Assembly: GCA_903813345.2 (NCBI GenBank)
Contig: CAIIXF020000008.1
Location: 38,378,867 to 38,442,866 of the forward strand
DNA length: 64,000 bases
Direction of reading: 5' to 3'
DNA from: Owenia fusiformis
Taxonomy: Eukaryota > Annelida > Polychaeta > Sabellida > Oweniidae
Shown: positions 2,650 through 62,850 of the stretch, piece by piece
Layout of the letters: every line of letters starts with the position of its first letter
How positions within the stretch are numbered: position 1 is the first letter of the stretch
Notes under the pieces: model-generated
Told to the model about the DNA's origin: nothing
The model's database searches: none
The model's input: the letters and a program-made list of their open reading frames with translations, nothing else
Translations under genes and position numbers: made by a program

Positions 2650-3750
2650 TTAACACAATCTATGCCTACAGATCAAATTTACATTTTGCAAAACCATCCT
2701 GATTCTGTATCTAACAAAAAACAACAACAACTTAATCCTAGCACAGTCATAGTCCGTCAAATTCTTTGTCAAATCGTCAATCAGATGTCTCAAATGGTCG
2801 GGTATATCTTCATCCGTCTTTTCCGGAGATTGGTATTCAATGCCACCAGCTGCAATGTTATTTCCAGTCACACGTTCATACCTTGTTACACCATCGTCAT
2901 GAGAACAGAGGGCGTGACCTGGACAATCAATCATCCTAGCGGTATAGGGCTGCCCGAGGTGCACGTTCGGCACGTCATCTAAGGACTTTTCAGCTTCACT
3001 TTCCAGCGCCTCGTCAGCTACAGCAGTGCAAGGGGTCAGACCTGAACATAATCTCAGATCCCTAGTTAGGACGTTTCCAGCGCATAAGGGATCGTCAGTC
3101 TCTGAATGATCGTCATCATCGCATCGAGACTCCCCAATTACGTCACGAGGTAAAATGTCAGGTCGTAGTCTGGCACGTTTGCCCTTCACCCCCTGTGGAC
3201 CATCTCTCATTGAATTACCAATTTCCGGATAAGTACCACCCTCAATATCAAGTTTTTCCCCACAAGAAACAACAGGATCCCCTATGTTAAACATTGGTTC
3301 CCCAGTTGCTACTGCAGCATTCTTGTAAAGGAACAAGGGTTCTAAACTAAGATTAGCCAATCTAATTGGAATAAAAGGTTGACTAGGGTCAACTAGGGAT
3401 TTGGCAACAATCAGGGGTGGAAATCTTTCTCTATCTGCCAAATTCCCATTCATTTCAATTAACAAAGGTGTATCACCCAAGTGTTGACATTGAACTTTTC
3501 CGGGAACAATCATTTCTGTCATGGGAGGCACTCTGACAGTATCTTGCATCAAAATTCGGCACTTTGTAGACAAATCAGTCTCTAATATACAATCAAAATC
3601 TTTGCCATGCATAGTCAACAGTGCATCCCCGACATTAATAATTGCCTTTTGGTTCTTTAAAAAATTGTAGCCTAACACAGCCAGAGTAGTTGTCGGCCAC
3701 AAATGATTTTTGAACCACCCGTTATACCCTGACACAAATAAAACATGCAA
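2650..3750 (-). pseudogene. Ty3/gypsy pol fragment: protease C-terminus plus linker, no RT (unit 1)
   Basis: 366-codon minus-strand ORF. Around residues 24-40 it carries LGYNFLKNQKAIINV, the pattern that closes gypsy retropepsins (LGxDFL..hxAiiNv). It is followed by the usual linker with PFIPIRLANLSLEPLFLYK, an acidic Asp-rich stretch, and near the C-terminus PDHLRHLIDDLTKNLTDYD, which in intact elements stands just ahead of reverse transcriptase. The catalytic D-S/T-G of the protease is not in the ORF, and the RT that should follow is missing. The first codon is TTG right after an in-frame TGA, so no real start is evident. The sequence TTTTATTTGTGTCAG just inside the ORF looks like a splice acceptor, so the segment may have been read as an exon. 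It is probably non-functional as an enzyme. The identical copy lies 4697 bp downstream. Confidence 0.75.
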
Positions 3751-4912: not shown

Positions 4913-6161
4913 TATAAAATACCAGCCCCGGAGTTATACAATAAGTAGGTAGCTACGACCGGGACTATTAATGAAGCTAGCATTTTATGATTCAATAAAT
5001 GATCGATGATCATAAAGACAAAGGGTGAATTTTATGTCTAGAGATTGAAAGACTAAAACAAACCAAAACTCCAAATATTGATAATAATTCACAGATGCAA
5101 ATCTTTAACTCAAAAGAAGACAATGAACAATTTTACCATTCATCTTATTCATTAATTTATTTTACAAACAAAATATTTCACATACCAAAAGCTTACTATT
5201 AAAGTATCACTTACAATGAGGAAATCAATTCTAGTTAATATAAGAGCAAACATCAAAAGCAAAATCTGCAGTCAGGTGAATATCATAAATTCCTTAAAAA
5301 CCTGAAGCTAAGTTGTTCTTAATAATTATGAATTGATTCCAATCTTACTATAAATCATCTTTAAATCTCTTCCTTCATAAGGCTTTTAGATTTCTCATGA
5401 TTCTTTTAGTAAAACAAGATAATGAAATAGAAATGGTATAAACTCTCATTAAAAGTAAAAACTGACGCTTACCTAAATAAGTTCAATTCGTTCCTCTTTT
5501 AAAATGACCATCTTGTTATTCTGTTCTATTTCAAACCTATCACAGCTTCTGTGCATGTTTGACTTCCAACAGACTATAGAAATAATCAAAGTCTAAAAAC
5601 ATGAAACTTCTATTGTACTTTTGACTTCATTTGTCCTCTTATAGAAACTTGAAAGTTCTAAACTTTCCTTTTCCATCTTTAGAACACTGAAAGTCCTTTA
5701 CAATACTTTTCATCTAAATCAAATTGTTGTTCCCATCATTTACCAGCCAAGATGTGCCCTTGATGATCCGAAATCGCTAACCCAGGAGTTTGTAAAATCC
5801 TCTCAATTTATACAAGATATTTTTCCATTAAAAAGTGATGTAAGCAACAAAATGATGTAGGCACAATAATGACGTTAATACTATACTTAGCATATGACAC
5901 TATATGACGTACCAAAAATAAAGCAACGTTTCAACTTTTACAAGGCTAAATGAAATGGATACTCTGACATAGTTAGAACAACTGCATCATGTTTTTAATG
6001 ACTCAGAGTGTACTTTATGAGGTGAAATTGACATCACTTTGCTCAAATCAGCTGACTGCAGTTTTGACTATCTTACTATTCAATTGATACAATGGTATTC
6101 TAGTATGAATATATGAGTACTAAGCAATAACTGATTATATTATAATGAGTGGGCCTCTACA
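4913..6161 (-). repeat. LTR copy B (shared middle LTR)
   Basis: 1249 bp, same sequence as copies A and C. It has a primer binding site on one side and a polypurine tract on the other and no target duplication, so it serves as 5' LTR of one unit and 3' LTR of the next. Confidence 0.9.
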
Positions 6162-7346: not shown

Positions 7347-8447
7347 TTAACACAATCTATGCCTACAGATCAAATTTACATTTTGCAAAACCATCCTGAT
7401 TCTGTATCTAACAAAAAACAACAACAACTTAATCCTAGCACAGTCATAGTCCGTCAAATTCTTTGTCAAATCGTCAATCAGATGTCTCAAATGGTCGGGT
7501 ATATCTTCATCCGTCTTTTCCGGAGATTGGTATTCAATGCCACCAGCTGCAATGTTATTTCCAGTCACACGTTCATACCTTGTTACACCATCGTCATGAG
7601 AACAGAGGGCGTGACCTGGACAATCAATCATCCTAGCGGTATAGGGCTGCCCGAGGTGCACGTTCGGCACGTCATCTAAGGACTTTTCAGCTTCACTTTC
7701 CAGCGCCTCGTCAGCTACAGCAGTGCAAGGGGTCAGACCTGAACATAATCTCAGATCCCTAGTTAGGACGTTTCCAGCGCATAAGGGATCGTCAGTCTCT
7801 GAATGATCGTCATCATCGCATCGAGACTCCCCAATTACGTCACGAGGTAAAATGTCAGGTCGTAGTCTGGCACGTTTGCCCTTCACCCCCTGTGGACCAT
7901 CTCTCATTGAATTACCAATTTCCGGATAAGTACCACCCTCAATATCAAGTTTTTCCCCACAAGAAACAACAGGATCCCCTATGTTAAACATTGGTTCCCC
8001 AGTTGCTACTGCAGCATTCTTGTAAAGGAACAAGGGTTCTAAACTAAGATTAGCCAATCTAATTGGAATAAAAGGTTGACTAGGGTCAACTAGGGATTTG
8101 GCAACAATCAGGGGTGGAAATCTTTCTCTATCTGCCAAATTCCCATTCATTTCAATTAACAAAGGTGTATCACCCAAGTGTTGACATTGAACTTTTCCGG
8201 GAACAATCATTTCTGTCATGGGAGGCACTCTGACAGTATCTTGCATCAAAATTCGGCACTTTGTAGACAAATCAGTCTCTAATATACAATCAAAATCTTT
8301 GCCATGCATAGTCAACAGTGCATCCCCGACATTAATAATTGCCTTTTGGTTCTTTAAAAAATTGTAGCCTAACACAGCCAGAGTAGTTGTCGGCCACAAA
8401 TGATTTTTGAACCACCCGTTATACCCTGACACAAATAAAACATGCAA
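7347..8447 (-). pseudogene. Ty3/gypsy pol fragment: protease C-terminus plus linker, no RT (unit 2)
   Basis: Same 366-codon reading frame as at 2650-3750, with no amino-acid difference and exactly 4697 bp away. It retains the protease-closing LGYNFL motif and the pre-RT linker, lacks the protease active-site aspartate, and has no downstream RT. Perfect preservation of a frame in both units does not by itself show selection, because the whole units appear identical. Confidence 0.75.
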
Positions 8448-9609: not shown

Positions 9610-10858
9610 TATAAAATACCAGCCCCGGAGTTATACAATAAGTAGGTAGCTACGACCGGGACTATTAATGAAGCTAGCATTTTATGATTCAATAAATGAT
9701 CGATGATCATAAAGACAAAGGGTGAATTTTATGTCTAGAGATTGAAAGACTAAAACAAACCAAAACTCCAAATATTGATAATAATTCACAGATGCAAATC
9801 TTTAACTCAAAAGAAGACAATGAACAATTTTACCATTCATCTTATTCATTAATTTATTTTACAAACAAAATATTTCACATACCAAAAGCTTACTATTAAA
9901 GTATCACTTACAATGAGGAAATCAATTCTAGTTAATATAAGAGCAAACATCAAAAGCAAAATCTGCAGTCAGGTGAATATCATAAATTCCTTAAAAACCT
10001 GAAGCTAAGTTGTTCTTAATAATTATGAATTGATTCCAATCTTACTATAAATCATCTTTAAATCTCTTCCTTCATAAGGCTTTTAGATTTCTCATGATTC
10101 TTTTAGTAAAACAAGATAATGAAATAGAAATGGTATAAACTCTCATTAAAAGTAAAAACTGACGCTTACCTAAATAAGTTCAATTCGTTCCTCTTTTAAA
10201 ATGACCATCTTGTTATTCTGTTCTATTTCAAACCTATCACAGCTTCTGTGCATGTTTGACTTCCAACAGACTATAGAAATAATCAAAGTCTAAAAACATG
10301 AAACTTCTATTGTACTTTTGACTTCATTTGTCCTCTTATAGAAACTTGAAAGTTCTAAACTTTCCTTTTCCATCTTTAGAACACTGAAAGTCCTTTACAA
10401 TACTTTTCATCTAAATCAAATTGTTGTTCCCATCATTTACCAGCCAAGATGTGCCCTTGATGATCCGAAATCGCTAACCCAGGAGTTTGTAAAATCCTCT
10501 CAATTTATACAAGATATTTTTCCATTAAAAAGTGATGTAAGCAACAAAATGATGTAGGCACAATAATGACGTTAATACTATACTTAGCATATGACACTAT
10601 ATGACGTACCAAAAATAAAGCAACGTTTCAACTTTTACAAGGCTAAATGAAATGGATACTCTGACATAGTTAGAACAACTGCATCATGTTTTTAATGACT
10701 CAGAGTGTACTTTATGAGGTGAAATTGACATCACTTTGCTCAAATCAGCTGACTGCAGTTTTGACTATCTTACTATTCAATTGATACAATGGTATTCTAG
10801 TATGAATATATGAGTACTAAGCAATAACTGATTATATTATAATGAGTGGGCCTCTACA
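9610..10858 (-). repeat. LTR copy C (5' LTR of the array in element orientation)
   Basis: 1249 bp. The outer end, plus-strand GGCCTCTACA, is followed by the ATAT target duplication at 10859-10862. Confidence 0.9.
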
Positions 10859-10862
10859 ATAT

Positions 10863-12365
10863 ATAAAGCACAATATCAGTAAACATGCCCAAATGTACTT
10901 ACATAAACTATCAACTTATATTCAAGCAATATGTAGTATTGTTTTCGTGGCAAAAATGAATCTTATATTAATACTTCTCATCTTGTTTTCTTTGGAAATG
11001 CCAAAGAATGATCATAAACATACTCTTCAAACATCTTGAACAAATCACTTGATTTTATGACGTTGCTAAAATTATTTATTTATGAAATATCGGAGAATAT
11101 GACTCAAAATAATAAAGTTGAGGCAGAAAACATTGATAGAATACATGTTAAAGAATGGGAAAACAGAATTACACAAGTTAAAATCATTCATACATTAAGA
11201 CATTGCATACATTGACTCCTTAAAGTGTCTCACATATTCGATCAGAATTTGCCATGCAAACATGTTAGTCTACTTTACTGGCCCCCTTGCTGTAACAAGG
11301 AACCCAAAACACATTAAAACGTAAACATAAACCAATTAGTCACTTCACTATGAAAGTGGGGGGGGTGTTAGCAAATGTGTATTAGCAGAATACGCTGTGT
11401 GCATGGACTAACACAGTATCAGTGGTCATTTACTGTGTCAACTTAGTAATCCTTGCATATCGTGCTCACTCAAGTATTGAATAATTTTTTATGATCTAAA
11501 TGTTTGTGGTTTATAAAAAAAATGTGATATATTTTAGTTAGAAATACATTAATTAATATATTCATTCAAACAGCACTAGAATGCGGGAAGAAAGAGCAAT
11601 GGTGACAAAATGCAGACAGAATTTTCCGTAAGGGTTTCAAACATTTCTGGACACAATCATACATGTACTTCATGTGTACTGTTATTTTTCAGTGCTGTAT
11701 TTATACATATAATTTCACGTATTAAAATCACATTTTCCAGCAATGACTTCAAATTCGGAACCACACCCATATCACATTTTCTTCAATAACTCCAAACATG
11801 TGTAAACATTGACCATGTGCATATAAATTCAGATTTCACGCGCTCTTTCCTATTCGAGTACCTCATACACCCCTGCATGGATTTGAGTTGGATTCGCCTT
11901 TTATACGTGAGCCGATACACATCGCAAACGCTGATTGGATAAAGATTGCGAGAATCTTTAAGGCATTGCTAAGTATTCCAAGATGGAATTAGACAAAGGG
12001 AAATGTATTGAAGGTAGCTGTAGTTATCAGAAGGCTTGACATCCTATAGGTAGGAGGGTTCAGACTTGGTTTCAAAGACTGGAGGACAGAATGCTTCAAG
12101 AAATGCATTCCTGTTATGAAAGACTTCATAAGAACCCTATATTTTGATTGATTATAAGTCAATTATGTCATAACCTGACGAACTGTTCAAAGAACACAGA
12201 TTGACCGAACAATTTCAGCCTTTCAAAGCATTCACAAAGTTAATTCAATTAAATAACGTCATATGTACCATGAGACCATTGGTTCACATTTTAAAGTCAA
12301 TGTATCTCAAGAACTATATCGTGTATGGTCCTACAATTTTGGATATGAATGTAGGATAGATCCAT
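10863..12365. other. Non-coding AT-rich stretch
   Basis: No exon, repeat unit or RNA gene could be supported here. It is probably the right half of the old mariner-like element that received the LTR insertion. Confidence 0.5.
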
Positions 12366-13084
12366 AAGAAATTCCATATAAAAATAATAAAATCTCTTCT
12401 CTTGAGAAGCATTCGTGCAAGACTTTTCGAACGACCCTTGTATATTCGATTTGTCAAATATTTGTATCCTCAAACACACATGGCCATATTAATAAACACC
12501 ATTAGTACATTATTTGGTAAACGCTATGGCAGATGGTGTATTTTGTGTATAACATATCTTCAATTGTAGACAACGGAGATATATAATTGAGTGTAGGTAT
12601 TTCTGTCGTGAATCCAAGTTGTCTAGATTAGGTTGTCCAATATTTTCTATCCTCCAAACATTATTTATCCATCTCTGGGAAAAACATTTTTAGATTATTA
12701 TTTTGAGAATGAAAGTACTTAAGAAATAAGAAATTCCATATAAAAATAATAAAATCTCTTCTCTTGAGAAGCATTCGTGCAAGACTTTTCGAACGACCCT
12801 TGTATATTCGATTTGTCAAATATTTGTATCCTCAAACACACATGGCCATATTAATAAACACCATTAGTACATTATTTGGTAAACGCTATGGCAGATGGTG
12901 TATTTTGTGTATAACATATCTTCAATTGTAGACAACGGAGATATATAATTGAGTGTAGGTATTTCTGTCGTGAATCCAAGTTGTCTAGATTAGGTTGTCC
13001 AATATTTTCTATCCTCCAAACATTATTTATCCATCTCTGGGAAAAACATTTTTAGATTATTATTTTGAGAATGAAAGTACTTAA
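12366..13084. repeat. 362-bp tandem duplication spanning a transposon end
   Basis: The segment beginning AAGAAATTCCATATAAAAAT at about 12366 recurs 362 bp later and runs to GAATGAAAGTACTTAA in both copies. Each copy contains the TIR end ACGACCCTTGTATA, so the duplication happened across the boundary of the mariner-like element and is younger than that element. Confidence 0.9.
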
Positions 13085-13616: not shown

Positions 13617-13721
13617 CCCACCATGAGTTACCAGAGGGCAGAGATCGATTTCTGCAAAGAGAACAGGCACAAAGACAAGCCAGGGAAAAGTCTAGTTCAG
13701 ATATTCTGAAAGGCATTGGAG
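13617..13721 (+). pseudogene. Orphan paralogue of exon 2 of the nucleotidyltransferase-TPR gene
   Basis: A 105-bp segment lies between an acceptor (TTGTTTTTAG) and a donor (GAG|GTGAGAA), open in the same phase 1-1 frame as the exon at 17890-17994. Its translation HHELPEGRDRFLQREQ.. parallels HRDISKSRDRYLQRAQ.. of the real exon, and both end in KGIG. Intact splice sites and frame suggest it was functional until recently, or still is, in a neighbouring gene copy. I found no matching first exon upstream and no nucleotidyltransferase exon before 17120, so it is best read as a leftover of a segmental duplication. Confidence 0.7.
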
Positions 13722-17119: not shown

Positions 17120-17279
17120 ATGGGTTCCCTGTGGGCTAAACGAACCCAACGGCGAGATGAATCTGGGGATGATACAAATGAGAATGAACAGCACGAGGAA
17201 ATATTAACATCAGTGGGAGAGTTGAATCTAAGCGAGGATGTGACACCTGGAATTTCAGTCGACAAACCAGATGATTTGG
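17120..17279 (+). CDS. Exon 1 of the nucleotidyltransferase-TPR gene
   Basis: 53 codons plus one base, from ATG to TTTGG|GTAAAA. It encodes a hydrophilic, acidic, probably disordered N-terminus after a basic start (MGSLWAKRTQRR). A MITE begins 11 bp into the following intron (17291). Confidence 0.75.
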
Positions 17280-20200
17280 GTAAAACACTAGATGCGCGTA
17301 GAAATAATCTTGATTTTCATTTCATGAAATATTCAACATTTAGTTAAAGGGATATCATATATCGTAAAATTGCAGAAATGTGGTTTAAAAAAGTATTTAC
17401 CACCTTTGAAAATCTTATCTTTCTTGAAAATGTGAATTCTAGGTCGGGGAGATTCCCCATTTACAAAATCACATAAAATGAAATATATTTTCTTGTGTTG
17501 GGCAGATAACATTTTCTTTTACTGGACACATTTTCATTTTTATAATTATCAAACACATGAGGATTATATGAAAATGTATCCACTTAAACTGAAGTTTAAG
17601 GGAACGTTCTTATATTCCTGCCATGTTAATTAACCCGAATCAGCCACCTGATGGTGAAATTGGTAACTACCTACTCGCATCCTAGTAATTAAAATCCAGC
17701 GTTTCATTCAACATACATGAACTTTACAGACAAAAATTAAGATGCCAAATATTACAGTTCATGGCCATTAAACATCCTGTACTTGTCCTTTAAATTATAT
17801 GATTTATATTCCTTGGAGTCATGCATGCATCTCACTGCAGTATATCAAAATTATATAACGGGTCAAACTATTGCGTCTTTCTGCTTTAGTCCACCGTGAT
17901 ATATCCAAAAGCAGAGATCGATATTTGCAAAGAGCACAAGTACGAAGAAATGCCAAGGAAAAGTCCAGACCAGATATTCCGAAAGGCATTGGAGGTGAGA
18001 AGCAACCATATAATTAACCTTGCCACGAAAAATTGACAAACGAATTATATCTTCCTTAATCTGTTAGTCCACGAACCTTTCTCCATTGTAAATGAATATG
18101 TGGATAAAGAAATACACTGCAGTGGCATCTAAAATTAACTAAATAAATTCACATATTTTGGAAGCATATTTTTGAATATTATGTAAGAAATATATCTATA
18201 TTCTACAGTAAGTACTTGGCAGTAAGTAAAGTGGCAATTAGCTTTGAATTCAAACACAAAACCAAAACTCAAAGAAATCATACCTCCTGAGCAGTAAAAA
18301 ATATGAAGATATATCACTGGGGTTGTTCCAACTTAGTTGTTGATAGACCAGATATCACAGTGGTACTATCAAAATTAAGATCTATAAAAATGTCATTACA
18401 ACTGTAGCAGGTCACTAGGCGAGTCATCTTACTTGCAAAGCAATGACATACATTTTGTAATGATAACGTGACCTTTATCACAGTTCAAGTGACTTAAGTA
18501 GATCTCCCCACCTTGATTTATAGCAAAAAGGCTGCCTTTTGCACTTTGGTCACATTGTGTCTATTTAAAGAGATCTATACCTTAAAGCTTGTCAGTTAAA
18601 AAACATAGACTTGACATCGAGAAGGATTGGCTCCCGGAATCGAAACTCGATATTTTCCAACAATTGACACGTCAAAATGTCGTTATTTTCTGAAATTAAA
18701 ACCGACTATAAATTCAAAGGTCCAAAGATTCGAACCAATATCTCGATCAATTCTTGTGAGTTTTGGAATTTTTCATAAGGAAATAAGACCGAAATTGACG
18801 ATTCAAATGTTGAAGTGAGCAAAATGGCGGCCGCTTGAATTCAAATTTTGTATCAAGACATGCCCATATATGGGACAGAATATCGATATTGCACTCTGGG
18901 AGCCAATCCTCCTTGACGTAACATATTTTACCATACCGTGCACCAATTCATTTAGCAATCTATAAGTAAAGTTTCTCATGGAGTAAATCTTGCAGGTTTG
19001 TGAATTTTCCACCAGAAATAGTATAACCCCCCTCCACTCATTTTGTCCGTTTTGCGGTTTTGCGGGCGTGTTTCTTTAGATCAAGACAAATCCAAAGAAG
19101 TGTAATTTATTTTAGATATGAACATTTAGCACAAACGTGTTTACAATGGGTGCATTCTCCGTATTCTAATTTTAATGAAAGTGTCCTTGATCGTATCGTC
19201 TTGTCTTGATTTAAAAATAATTGATTTTCATTGTTTTCTGAAATCCAAAGCCATTTATTCTCCTGGTTCTCTAGCTTGGAGTAGGGGGCTCATGAATGTC
19301 CGACGTTTTTTCCATTTACTTGGCTGCATCGGTCACAACAGAGATATACTTTGTATGTGTCATAGTTCAGCGTCGATTATTTTCAAAAATGAGGACGTTC
19401 CCCTTTTCGATTCTAAGTCTGGACATTGTGCATCTTTTTTTTTATCTCACCGTAGATTGTATAGTAGGGATATATATTACCCGTTCGTCCGTCTACTCGT
19501 TTGTTTGGACCATAATTTGGTTGAACAGTGCAGATGTTAATTCCATAATTCACAACATGTTATTTTTGGAATTATTAGAAATATAAATAACTTCTTAAGG
19601 GATTAGTTTAACCATTTGATTCGAGTTTTATTCGATTTGTGTAAAATGTTGTTTCAAAAGAATATTTCTTATTCTAGAGACATCAGACTACATGTACAGC
19701 CTGGGACAAAATATAGCGAAATTAGGGAAAGTGAAGAAAAAGAACAACGAACAGCTGGAAAACCAGGCGAGAGACATGTGCAAGTTGGCTGAAGAATACC
19801 TCAAACTCACGGAGGAATCCCCAGAAGCCTGGTACTTTGTAAAGGCATGCTGCCTATTTAATACTGCCTCGAGGAGATACGAGGAGATCCAACAAAACAA
19901 GGGCTCTGACAATATTTCAGGCACATGTAGTCATGAAATGTACATTAAAGAAAGACTTCAGTACATTGAGACTGAATTCTTGAAAAGAGTGCCGGACACA
20001 CCCAAGGTTTACAATAAGAGTACATCAGAGAGTACTGCTAAGTTTAGGTCACTTATAAATGAAGTGCGCAAATATGAAACAGACACGATCAACCATATTC
20101 AAAACAATGTGATGAAAATAGATCTGTCTACAACAGCAGATATGAGTGAAGATGCTGAAATCCAAACAATTGAACAGAGTAATATATTTTACAACGAGGT

Positions 20201-22499
20201 CACTGATAAGATCAAAGTCTTTCATTGGTCAGTTATCGAAGATTGTATGAAGGTTTTAGGTGTCCCTCAATGTCGTTATGCAATCTTAGGTCATGGGTCT
20301 CTGGCCCGGAAAGAAGCAACAGCTTGGTCAGATTTAGAGTTCTCTGTACTGTATGATCCCAACGGTAAATCTGAAGAACAAATCGAAGGTATTAAAGCAT
20401 ATTTTAGAGTACTTGCCCACTATATTCATATCAAAATCATCAATCTAGGTGAAACACTCCCATATTGCCTCAGTATTCCAGTTCTGAATGACCATAATAA
20501 GCTTTTGGGGGAAATAGATAACAATTTCTTTGATGACATTACCCCCCAGGGCATTTCCTTTGATGGCGCATCTCCATGGGCAAGTAAGACCCCACTGGGT
20601 CGCAAAGCAACTGCGAAGAAACCAATACCAGTTGAATTAATAATGACTCCCTCAGAGATGGCTAAATGCCAAGAAGAGGAAAAGTCAAAGACTGAGGGGT
20701 ATCATCTAAGTGATGTCCTTCAATCTAAGACCCTTATACATGGAGATGTAGGACTAGTATGTGAGTACACGTCATTGGTAAATGAAATACTAAAGTCACA
20801 ACTAAAGGAATCTACTTTAGCTTATAAACGAGGAGTAGAAACCCTCAAGGAAGATCTCGATAATTTCTCTAAACAACCCTTTACTCCAGCATCTCTCACA
20901 TCCCAAATACACACTAAAAAGGACATCTACAGGTTTGCCACCATATCTGTCAATTCATTGAAATTGATATACGGGTGCGAATCAGATGCACCTCTTGATG
21001 TTCTAAGTGAACTCGAAATTAGGAAAATAATTGAACAAAATGCTTGCAGAGATCTCAAACTCATGGTCTGCATTGCTATAAACCTCCGCCACCTGGTCTA
21101 CAGCAGATACAACAGACAGTTGGATGATATATGCTTTACCAGAAGACTAGATGACAAAGACCAATCAAAGTCATTGTCAGTACGTGACTATTGCGCAATA
21201 TTTCGCTTTTATTACACCTTTAAACCGTGGTCAGAGTTCCTTCAGGTTGTGTGCAAATTGGGAAATAAAGTTTGGAACTGGAAGAAAAGATTTTTTGAAA
21301 ATACCGACACTATTAAGGGGGAGATATTTCAAAACATGAATATTTTTGAAAGTGCAATCAAAGTTTTTCAGAATGAACATGATACATTCCAATATAAAGG
21401 TTCTTCGAAACAGCTGAGTGATACAAAGTATGCATTAGGAGATTTATATTACAGAATAGGAAAATATAATATTGCTAGAAAGTACATTGAAGATAGTCTC
21501 AATATTAGAAAATTAGTCAATGGGGATTATCCAAATCGAAATGTAGCTTCTTCTTTACACCAGCTCGGTGTAGTCTACCAGGCTATGGGTGATAACACTA
21601 AAGCTCTTGAGTATTTCACTGAGAGTCGAGAGATGAAGAAACAGGTACACGGCGATGCTCCACATCCAAGTGTAGCTGCTTCTTTACACCAGCTCGGTGT
21701 AGTCTACCAGGATATGGGTGATAACACTAAAGCTCTTGAGTATTTCACTGAGAGTCTAGAGATGGATAAGCAGGTACACGGTGATGCTCCACATCCAAGT
21801 GTAGCTGCTTCTTTACACCAGCTCGGTGTAGTCTACCGGGCTATGGGTGATAACACTAAAGCTCTCGAGTATTTCACTGAGAGTCTAGAGATGAAGAAAC
21901 AGGTACACGGCGATGCTCCACATCCAAGTGTAGCTGCTTCTTTACACCAGCTCGGTGTAGTCTACCAGGATATGGGTGATAACACTAAAGCTCTTGAGTA
22001 TTTCACTGAGAGTCTAGAGATGAAGAAACAGGTACACGGCGATGCTCCACATCCAAATGTAGCTGCTTCTTTACACCAGCTCGGTGTAGTCTACCAGGAT
22101 ATGGGTGATAACACTAAAGCTCTTGAGTATTTCACTGAGAGTCAAGAGATGAAGAAACAGGTACACGGCGATGCTCCACATCCAAGTGTAGCTGCTTCTT
22201 TACACCAGCTCGGTGTAGTCTACCAGGATATGGGTGATAACACTAAAGCTCTTGAGTATTTCACTGAGAGTCAAGAGATGAAGAAACAGGTACACGGCGA
22301 TGCTCCACATCCAAGTGTAGCTGCTTCTTTACACCAGCTCGGTGTAGTCTACTATTACCAATATGATTACAAGAGATCGTTAGAACATTTCAATAAGTCA
22401 CATAGGATGAAGATGAGAGTGTTGAATGATGAAACTCATCCCAGTATTGTAAACACTGCAGGCTGGATCGAAGATTGTAAACAGAAAGTAACAAAATAG
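17120..22499 (+). CDS. Nucleotidyltransferase (GlnD/DUF294-like)-TPR repeat protein, three-exon gene
   Basis: Spliced CDS joining 17120-17279, 17890-17994 and 19678-22499, 3087 nt, about 1,028 residues plus stop. All junctions have GT-AG ends and phase 1, so the frame closes. The protein starts MGSLWAKRTQRR, where Gly2 followed by basic residues could be myristoylated for membrane binding. Around residues 293-311 is GHGSLARKEATAWSDLEFS, the G-S-x-A-R-x-E...D-x-E pattern of DUF294/GlnD-type nucleotidyltransferases, whose acidic pair binds metal for NMP transfer. The C-terminal third (from about 664) is kinesin-light-chain-like TPRs, a protein-binding scaffold. No membrane segment or signal peptide is seen, so the protein is probably cytosolic or peripheral. 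Substrate and partners are unknown. The start is supported by AAAATGG (A at -3, G at +4) and by the absence of an acceptor just upstream. The assignment to the superfamily is firmer than any claim of catalytic activity. Confidence 0.85.
17291..17681. mobile_element. MITE with GATGCGNGTAG ends (partner 31133-31553, inverted)
   Basis: Left end GATGCGCGTAG and right end CTACTCGCATC form a terminal inverted repeat. The whole 391-bp body aligns with the reverse complement of 31133-31553, for instance ACATTTTCTTTTACTGGACA and TGGTAACTACCTACTC. CTA on both sides may be a 3-bp target duplication. It fills most of intron 1. Confidence 0.8.
17890..17994 (+). CDS. Exon 2 of the nucleotidyltransferase-TPR gene
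   Basis: A 105-bp symmetric phase 1-1 exon between TGCTTTAG and G|GTGAGA. It encodes a strongly basic, Arg/Lys/Gln-rich 35-residue segment (RDRYLQRAQVRRNAKEK) likely to be helical. A homologous exon lies at 13617-13721. Being symmetric, it can be skipped or duplicated without a frame change. Confidence 0.8.
17890..18425 (+). repeat. Segmental duplication, copy 2 (partner 13617-14106)
   Basis: Exon 2 plus the first 430 bp or so of intron 2 align with the upstream copy. This is the copy that belongs to the complete gene. Confidence 0.75.
18623..18910. mobile_element. MITE with AGGATTGGCTCCC ends, copy 1
   Basis: A perfect 13-bp inverted repeat, AGGATTGGCTCCC and GGGAGCCAATCCT, bounds 288 bp. 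The body matches 32732-33021 in the same orientation (GTCGTTATTTTCTGAAATTA, CATATATGGGACAGAATATC). It lies in intron 2. No clear target duplication was read. Confidence 0.85.
19678..22499 (+). CDS. Exon 3: nucleotidyltransferase core and TPR array
   Basis: A single 2822-bp exon from the acceptor TATTCTAG to the stop TAG. With the one base carried over from exon 2 the frame reads E-T-S-D-Y before the internal Met at 19692, so that Met is residue 94 and not the start. In order it encodes a helical region, the nucleotidyltransferase motif G-S-x-A-R-x-E...S-D-x-E, a conserved-looking loop with SFDGASPWASKTPLGR, a helical bridge with the DYCAIFRFYYTFKPW stretch, a divergent first TPR, six near-identical 43-residue TPRs, and a divergent last TPR with a Cys-Lys-rich end. 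Confidence 0.9.
21543..22316 (+). repeat. Six 129-bp coding repeats (TPR units)
   Basis: GTAGCTKCTTCTTTACACCA recurs at 21543, 21672, 21801, 21930, 22059, 22188 and 22317, spaced exactly 129 bp (43 codons). Each unit encodes LHQLGVVYQxMGDNTKALEY and ends in HGDAPHPSVA. Units differ at only a few positions (QD/QA/RA, SR/SL/SQ, K/D), so they were amplified or homogenised recently. The seventh start at 22317 leads into a divergent capping repeat. Confidence 0.97.
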
Positions 22500-22560: not shown

Positions 22561-22566
22561 AATAAA
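22561..22566 (+). terminator. Polyadenylation signal AATAAA
   Basis: AATAAA begins 62 bp after the stop of the nucleotidyltransferase-TPR gene, a plausible position for its cleavage signal. A second AATAAA follows near 22811. Confidence 0.6.
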
Positions 22567-25835: not shown

Positions 25836-26030
25836 CTGACAATGAAATCATTGCCATATTGTTCATGCCCAATGAAATCATTGCCAATGCCCACTGTAAT
25901 CATTGCCATATTGTTCATGCCCAATGTAATCATTGCCATACTGTCCATGTCCACTGTAATCATTGCCATATTGTTCATGTCCATTGCAATTATTGTCATT
26001 TTGTTCATGGCAACTGTGACCATGGCCATT
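25836..26030. repeat. 30-bp minisatellite
   Basis: About six copies of a 30-bp unit around GTAATCATTGCCATATTGTT. The period is a multiple of three, which creates apparent 10-residue His/Cys repeats in several frames. These are not taken as coding. Confidence 0.9.
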
Positions 26031-51119: not shown

Positions 51120-51760
51120 ACTTTGCATATTTGACACGTTACACGTGTCTCACTTAAATTAGTTCTTTCCCAGGCAAATGTCATCTCTTGTATTTAACAC
51201 TTTACTCGATTCACTCTTGGTATTTTCGAGGCAGATTTCATCACTTCTATTAGACACTTTACACGTGTATCACCCTTGGTATTTTAGAGGCAGATTTCAT
51301 CGCTTGTGTTAGACACTTTACACGTGCATCACCGTTGGTACAATTAAGGCAATTTCATCACTACTATTAGACACTTTACTCGTTTATCACCCTTGGTACA
51401 ATTAAGGCAATTTCATCACTTCTATTAGACACTTTACTCGCGCATCACTCTTGGTATTTTCAAGGCAGATTTCATCGCTTGTGTTAGACACTTTACACGT
51501 GTATCACCATTGGTATTTTAGAGGCAGATTTCATCGCTTGTGTTAGACACTTTACACGTGTATCACCCTTGGTACAATTAAGGCAATTTCATCACTTCCA
51601 TTAGACACTTTACTCGTATATCACCCTTGGCATTTTCGGGGTAGATTTCCTCACTCCTGTTAGACACTTTACATCATAGTGTATCACCCTGGCAGATTTC
51701 ATCACTTATATTAGAAACTTTACACGTGTACCACCATTGGTACTTAAAGGCATTTAAAGT
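51120..51760. repeat. 58-59-bp satellite with ACACGTGT core
   Basis: TTAGACACTTTAC recurs at a spacing of 58-61 bp about nine times (from near 51249 to 51712), with TTTCATCACTTCTATTAGAC and CACCCTTGGTA in each unit. Many units carry the palindrome ACACGTGT. Confidence 0.9.
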
Positions 51761-62545: not shown

Positions 62546-62576
62546 AGCTCACATGGTGAGCTATTGCAATCACTCG

Positions 62577-62607
62577 TCTGTCTGTCCGTCCGTCCGTCCG
62601 TCCGTCC

Positions 62608-62647
<40 letters not shown>

Positions 62648-62850
62648 GTCTGTCTGTCTGTCTCTCTGTCTGTCTGTCTGCCTGTCTCTCTGTCTGTCTG
62701 TCTCTCTGTCTGTCTGTCTCTCTGTCTCTCTGTCTGTCTGTCTGTCTCTCTGTCTGTCTGTCTCTCTGTCTGTCTCTCTGTCTCTCTGTCTGTCTCTCTG
62801 TCTCTCTCTCTGTCTGTCTCTCTGTCTGTCTCTCTGTCTCTCTGTCTGTC
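62577..62850. repeat. CCGT/CTGT/CTCT microsatellite
   Basis: About 270 bp of CCGT then CTGT units with frequent CTCT interruptions. All reading frames through it are artefacts of the repeat. Confidence 0.98.

Follow-up and report, generated by a model that had tools for sequence, protein, structure and literature searches.

Enzymes of the GlnD, GlnE and DrrA type move a nucleotide onto the side chain of a protein. In animals, protein nucleotidylation is, to our knowledge, known from very few enzymes, FICD and SelO. FICD is an animal AMPylase with the Fic fold that contains tetratricopeptide repeats (TPRs), and DrrA/SidM is an effector that bacteria secrete, with no TPR array. Two expanded protein families from other organisms are also relevant here. 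NEX2, an expansion family of Neochlamydia, comprises 50 proteins with an F-box, sometimes OTU, then DUF294 and TPRs (PMC4209131), and sea urchin NLRs carry N-terminal 2A-like signal sequences, in which the leader both skips and targets, the motif being present in non-LTR retrotransposons as well (PMC4981915). In this work we analysed a stretch of 64,000 nucleotides from the annelid Owenia fusiformis (assembly GCA_903813345.2, contig CAIIXF020000008.1, positions 38,378,867 to 38,442,866), referred to as the window, which carries a gene for a DUF294-like nucleotidyltransferase (NTase) followed by a TPR array. We put at about even the chance that this gene belongs to a lineage-expanded, immune-type animal family of DUF294-like enzymes of the DNA polymerase beta superfamily, which would nucleotidylate a TPR-bound protein. 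The most interesting part was the surroundings of the gene, i.e., 100 related loci in the same genome, a layout that bacteria also have, and the StopGo-like leader carried by many of the close sisters.

The gene was assembled by joining exons 17120-17279, 17890-17994, and 19678-22499, all on the + strand, which gave 3,087 nt and 1,028 aa with GT-AG introns and one terminal stop, as had been proposed in a preliminary description of the locus. Three further in-frame splice choices from the same enumeration were all 3-6 codons shorter. The frame of exon 3 alone extends over 959 codons from stop to stop, far beyond chance expectation at 33-39% GC. Exon 1 begins with MGSLWAKRT, is acidic and ends with a phase-1 donor; exon 2 (105 nt) encodes a basic peptide ending with SRDRYLQRAQVRRNAKEKSRPDIPKGIG; exon 3 encodes the NTase core and the TPR array up to the stop codon at 22497-22499. 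A possible polyadenylation signal, AATAAA, was read 62 nt past the stop codon on the + strand (22561-22566). Support for the junctions was sought as recurrence in paralogues and in tandem exon copies, from genomic DNA alone. The acceptor of exon 3 had identical place and phase in 11 of 12 named loci, the window's own included, the twelfth, L027, being missed by the search pattern. The exon 2 peptide matched five places in its own genome: its own site, a tandem copy (13617-13721), and a single site ahead of each of the three nearest paralogues. These last relatives were located 1-4.4 kb upstream of exactly those three genes, with E values of 0.09, 0.5, and 2.2, i.e., weak one by one, but located where expected. 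Both splice sites of exon 2 were kept in L003 and L004, the two paralogues compared, with the donor context GGAG|GTGAG. Exon 1, together with its splice model, was matched by one tandem copy, which is described further below. No relative of exon 1 was found in the 3 kb upstream of paralogue L004 (L064). Taken together, the recurrence of exons and splice sites in paralogues and tandem copies argues that the three-exon gene is real.

The conserved core begins with an N-terminal part (19678-20231, +), helical by low-confidence prediction, which bacterial relatives share from model position 4 of the core alignment (A1) onward. It is followed by the DUF294-like nucleotidyltransferase domain (20232-20711, +), supported by Pfam, the core alignment, and a low omega of 0.135 in the NTase part, and by a C-terminal part (20712-21434, +; IYRFATIS..., NLRHLVY...) supported by the core alignment, with helices again by low-confidence prediction. 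By position, and by analogy with PMC3710099, the latter could be the HEPN-like side domain of such NTases. The TPR array forms the C-terminal third of the protein with 43-residue units (approximate bounds 21417-22487, +, from Pfam and repeat analysis), and was matched by TPR_12 at 2.7e-79 and TPR_10 at 8e-66. At the DNA level this part is a tandem repeat of a 129-bp unit in 6.4 copies with 96% matches (21530-22352). Pfam results are given as the best 25 of 26 families for the full window protein and the best 25 of 40 for the other cores. DUF294 was matched by all 29 animal cores scanned at E<=1, the best at 6e-11. The joining of a DUF294-like NTase to a TPR array in an animal gene, as first read from the letters, was borne out. 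For these cores 29 out of 30 loci were used, and the shorter frame of L028 was left out.

The pattern of the DNA polymerase beta superfamily, G-S ... [DE]-x-[DE] ... third acid, was present in each of the 52 cores aligned, of which 29 were animal and 23 bacterial. Indeed, G207, S208, T215, S218, D219, E221, E259, D296, K304, and G308 (A1 numbering) were invariant in 52/52. In the window these motif sites are G-S at 20295-20300, D-x-E at 20331-20339, the third Asp at 20562-20564, and the Lys at 20586-20588 (+); in the 1,028-aa protein the first three correspond to G295-S296, D307/E309, and D384. The preliminary description had named the G-S and D-x-E elements, and these were unchanged in every animal and bacterial core; the third acid, in turn, is most likely D296, outside the motif given there. 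E320 had been considered for the same role and was disfavoured by the wider alignment, in which D296 is kept in 52/52; E320 is Lys in 2 of the 23 bacterial relatives.

Profile comparison with solved structures (profile A2) pointed to the AMP-transferase domain of DrrA/SidM as the best solved relative of the family, with chains 6yx5 (1.2e-7) and 3nku (2.4e-5) matching across the segment containing G-S and D-x-E. The next matches had E values of 0.008 and above; SMC and hemagglutinin chains were aligned with the N-terminal part, in all likelihood by chance, and an aminoglycoside NTase followed at E 0.35. In the same direction, the Pfam model SidM_N matched 12 of the 29 cores, the best at 2.8e-5. 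For the window core the complete list at E<=1 held four families, DUF294, SidM_N, Phasin, and GlnE; HD, ACT, GlnD_UR_UTase, and Mab-21 domains were absent from it. The motif GG/GS...R.E...SD.D/E aligned without gaps with E. coli GlnD; this alignment was confined to the motif and weak, with E 0.0024 and probability 12, or E 0.033 and probability 1.5 when A1 alone was used. Membership in GlnD, the signature having been called DUF294/GlnD-like at the outset, was not upheld by the profile check, as the window core lacks HD, ACT and GlnD_UR_UTase, and the protein has a TPR array instead. FICD is similar in outline, combining TPRs with AMP transfer, but as a Fic-fold enzyme it is unrelated to the window NTase.

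Relatives were also sought outside the animal. When the paralogue alignment was used to scan bacterial and archaeal genomes, 31 pattern matches were obtained, of which one was a relative, in an alphaproteobacterial metagenome-assembled genome (MAG; contig JAHDBQ010000108.1) with 31% identity and E 1e-33. Within the order of this MAG, matches were found in 15 of 262 genomes including the MAG itself, those in G008, G024, and G039 being short and weak (E 5e-4, 8e-4, and 2e-7). A class-wide sample of 385 gave a core match to the MAG alone, whose own row was part of the query, and two short matches. Genomes of the matching alphaproteobacteria were 0.9-2.4 Mb, a small size that would suggest an intracellular life. 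Of 72,556 plasmids only the one from Neochlamydia sp. S13 matched; it did so at 11 places, with 29.6% identity by tblastn over core positions 171-582. The viral contigs gave 18 and 54 pattern matches with no relative among them. The bacterial alignment comprised 23 of 33 frames and left out near-duplicates and fragments as well as the two weakest; these bacterial cores aligned over most of the core model (the best over model 20-572, E 1e-73). TPR_12 arrays were present in all six bacterial C-terminal pieces, one from Neochlamydia and five alphaproteobacterial. At the N-terminus, an F-box-like part was found in 3/3 Neochlamydia plasmid proteins scanned, and DUF294 was reached in two of the three pieces, given as 400 residues, with 34 bits; four alphaproteobacterial N-terminal pieces scanned gave no Pfam match. 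In the tree, the animal rows, all from one animal genome, were separated from the rest by a branch with 100/100 support, subject to the warning that several of the bacterial branches are long.

Judging from layout and genus, the Neochlamydia plasmid proteins are presumably members of NEX2. The annelid family resembles NEX2 in the common NTase family, in the order of NTase and then TPR_12, and in that both families are expanded. The differences are that NEX2 is bacterial, and that the F-box-like N-terminus of the plasmid proteins was not seen in the window protein, where Pfam gave no F-box in the two pieces searched, the exon 3 core and the copy of exon 1. The alphaproteobacterial proteins share nearly the whole aligned core and the TPR_12 arrays (5/5 C-terminal pieces), though their occurrence is sporadic. 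By sequence comparison, then, the NTase-then-TPR layout is not peculiar to animals, since it occurs on a Neochlamydia plasmid and in small-genome alphaproteobacteria as well. No description of the layout or the family in animals was found in literature searches, for which most subscription papers were outside reach, and which are accordingly weak evidence of novelty.

The gene turned out to be a member of a large family. The exon 3 protein gave at least 87 match rows in its own genome (49 of 258 first-look candidates scored), and a 160-residue NTase query gave 102 rows, with all 102 candidates scored, merging into 100 loci. These comprised 66 close loci with at least 50% identity, a few being fragments, and 34 distant ones (32-46%). 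Members were located on every contig C1-C12, some of them in tandem, e.g., on C6, where about 153 kb contained six of the scored loci. Among the loci scored with the exon 3 protein the longest frames reached 4,014 codons, and strict TPR motifs numbered from 1 to 17 per frame over 30 loci, several frames ending at the locus edge. The window gene formed a separate four-gene clade in the tree with its three nearest paralogues, from which it differed by dN 0.14-0.15 and dS 1.16-1.28. Omega (NG86) was computed for the core as a whole and for its parts; among 406 core pairs, 103 had dS below 1.2, and for these its median was 0.18 and its maximum 0.30, and the NTase part had the lowest median, 0.135 against 0.158 and 0.207 for the other parts of the core. 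Such values indicate that the core is under purifying selection. The 34 distant loci make up a second tier of DUF294-like loci, with several each on C4, C7, and C9; the sole distant stretch that was read, L086, looked by eye like the C-terminal part of the core.

When the upstream flanks of the paralogues were compared all against all, many of the matches listed looked like duplicated non-coding flanks, and the same comparison revealed a leader exon. It has the form MG....QWR..IG.F...LL..G[V/I]ExNPGP with a phase-1 GT behind it, and was seen upstream of six of 30 loci, L009, L014, L022, L024, L027, and L029 (donors by eye). StopGo/2A leaders are defined by the ending (D/G/C/N)(V/I)ExNPGP in PMC12846837. 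Against its own genome the leader gave 80 rows (all 84 candidates scored), of which 57 aligned through the NPGP end. A match on the same strand at most 20 kb upstream was found for 44 of the 66 close NTase loci, 40 of them within 10 kb and 33 within 5 kb. Controls at 20 kb gave eight matches downstream on the same strand (one at 5 kb) and none on the opposite strand, and none of the 34 distant loci had a match within 20 kb upstream. Eighteen further leaders were read, 14 upstream of scored cores and four without; 17 ended with ExNPGP and one with DPGP, 16 fitted the strict motif, and 17 had a phase-1 GT behind the motif (three by eye), while L072 had no ATG at the usual place. In total the ExNPGP ending was present in 23 of 24 leaders read and the strict motif in 22 of 24, the exceptions being GLETNPGP and GIEMDPGP. 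The intron phase suggests that the leader is spliced to the core exon. The window gene and its three nearest paralogues had no leader match on their own strand within 50 kb upstream; as far as seen, this clade has the exon 2 relatives instead. Local exon duplication was seen at L027:293-1298 and at G000:C8:34412054-34413945, where the full leader is preceded by tandem repeats of the first parts of its exon, some of them with stops.

Seven of the 57 leader matches through the NPGP end had no close core within 50 kb downstream, L082 and L083 being the two of these that were read. In L083 the leader is a classic GDVEMNPGP and leads into a coiled-coil frame, behind which lies an endonuclease frame (PF03372, 7.6e-8). 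By this order of frames it has the layout of an element like a long interspersed nuclear element (LINE), and no match to reverse transcriptase was found in the L083 stretch read. The LINE-like element was observed in L083 and L084 (G000:C6 at about 4.954-4.957 Mb), with a twin match at G000:C8:4736267-4736458, its first frame opening with MG..QWR..IG...GDVEMNPGP. Possibly such an element was the source of the leader exon of the NTase-TPR genes, or the reverse. The annelid leaders and the sea urchin thus share a pair of homes, a gene family and a LINE-like or non-LTR element. The likeness to sea urchin NLRs lies in an expanded family with an N-terminal leader ending in StopGo, as in many of the annelid sisters although not in the window gene. 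The differences are that the NLRs are NACHT/LRR proteins, and that their defining motif has D where all annelid leaders read have G, except L083. According to PMC12846837, leucine-rich upstream motifs are mostly paired with D, not G, at the first motif position.

The mechanism that fits best is the one proposed at the outset, an enzyme that nucleotidylates a TPR-bound partner, although not as the single unprecedented animal gene it was taken for. The TPR array is kept beside the NTase in the animal and in bacteria, and the simplest reading is therefore that the TPRs hold the substrate protein. The array would capture a partner, and the NTase would transfer a nucleotide to a side chain of the partner so held and thereby switch it, comparable to the action of GlnD on PII and DrrA on Rab1. 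The nucleotide would most likely be AMP because of the likeness to the DrrA AMP-transferase, with UMP as a possibility. A role against microbes is suggested by the number of copies and their clustering in tandem, by the variation in TPR counts, and by the StopGo-like leader found with many sisters. Several observations weigh against this reading. The window protein scored 20.1-20.8 bits with DUF294 (PF03445), just below the Pfam gathering cutoff of 21, and bacterial relatives are variable at two residues of GSxxRxE, the Arg (R211) being kept in 6/23 and the Glu (E213) in 6/23. Two AlphaFold predictions, of the core and of the NTase piece, from 2-row alignments of the window and L031, had pLDDT 33.5 and 38.5 and gave no usable model. 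Internal stops occurred in three of 49 long matches (L017, L018, L028), and some copies of the family may be broken. As to the immune part, for which the preliminary description had offered stress or immune signalling as a possibility, it is suggested by family expansion and analogy, and the core-wide omega gave no sign of diversifying selection.

Other activities were weighed against protein nucleotidylation. The NTase might make a small nucleotide signal once the TPRs sense a ligand, in the style of cGAS-like receptors, and a Mab-21/cGAS-like domain followed by TPRs is indeed known from an expanded invertebrate family (PMC8195603). We regard such a second-messenger synthase as unlikely, as Mab-21 was not among the four families of the complete list for the window core and the nearest solved chain is the AMP-transferase of DrrA. 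An NTase-folded core that merely binds nucleotide or protein, i.e., a pseudoenzyme or scaffold, was given an equally low probability: TPR arrays alone can be scaffolds, E320 is replaced by Lys in two bacterial relatives, and the GSxxRxE residues are lost in most of the 23, but G-S, D-x-E, and D296 are kept in every core and median omega is lowest in the NTase part. NTases of the superfamily also modify tRNA ends or small molecules, and weak matches were obtained to aminoglycoside NTase and MntA models (E 0.006 and 0.02) in addition to the solved aminoglycoside NTase. A nucleic acid or small molecule as the target, with the TPRs serving for placement only, nevertheless seems improbable, given that the C-terminal TPR_12 array of the window protein and of 6/6 bacterial pieces points to a protein partner. 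Finally, outside the animal genome the closest layout comes from bacteria, as would be expected of contamination, or of the relic of a bacterial effector rather than a working animal gene; this is largely refuted and hardly credible in view of introns with conserved splice sites, members on each of C1-C12, low omega, and the well-supported animal branch.

If nucleotidylation of a TPR-bound protein is accepted, the approximately 100 NTase loci would add many new candidates to the protein-modifying enzymes, directly linked in evolution to proteins of bacteria, and the leader of the sisters would extend the case of the sea urchin NLRs to another protein family. The LINE-like element with the same kind of leader suggests a route by which such leaders spread. 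A broader picture, which we put forward as a speculative and rather doubtful one, is a hitherto unrecognised annelid receptor-enzyme system of dozens of TPR-guided protein nucleotidyltransferases with effector-like kin in intracellular bacteria, many of these enzymes with a StopGo leader shared with a LINE-like element, and the window subfamily with an N-terminus that would possibly anchor it to membranes instead. If this were true, the StopGo leader could let one mRNA give both cytosolic and secretory-pathway forms, as shown for the sea urchin NLR leaders.

N-myristoylation follows the rule of an MGxxx[STAGCN] start. The N-terminus of the window protein, MGSLWAKRT, fits this rule and is a possible N-myristoyl membrane anchor. 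The only other genomic copy of exon 1, exon 1', lies at G000:C8:38378441-38378602 (L063:642-806), 265 bp left of the window start. The copy has diverged, but keeps the start MGSLW[A/T]KRT (MGSLWTKRT; 8/9 first residues) and the phase-1 donor. Exon 2', a tandem copy of exon 2 at 13617-13721 (+), has 56% identical residues and an acceptor and donor in equal phase. Exons 1 and 2 are therefore present in tandem with 1' and 2', whereas exon 3, downstream of them, occurs once, and exons 1' and 2' may be alternative first exons giving alternative N-termini, or a relic. Exons 1 and 1' differed by 33 nonsynonymous and 14 synonymous changes over 124.5 and 34.5 sites, and exons 2 and 2' by 16 and 5 over 79.7 and 22.3 sites; strong constraint on the tandem exons is therefore not shown by these counts.

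The stretch from exon 1' to exon 2' contains repeats of 4,697 bp. Three copies at 216-515, 4913-5212, and 9610-9909 of the window are spaced by this length and are 100% identical over the 300-nt reference copies, representing either a recent duplication or an assembly artefact. An identical 366-aa frame on the minus strand lies in these repeats at 2650-3750 and 7347-8447, the first copy of which gave no Pfam match. In addition, a 362-bp unit occurs twice in tandem with 100% match at 12364-13084, and satellite-like arrays were observed at 51172-51743 (59-bp unit), 62576-62850 (GTCT repeats), and 25840-26029 (30-bp unit).

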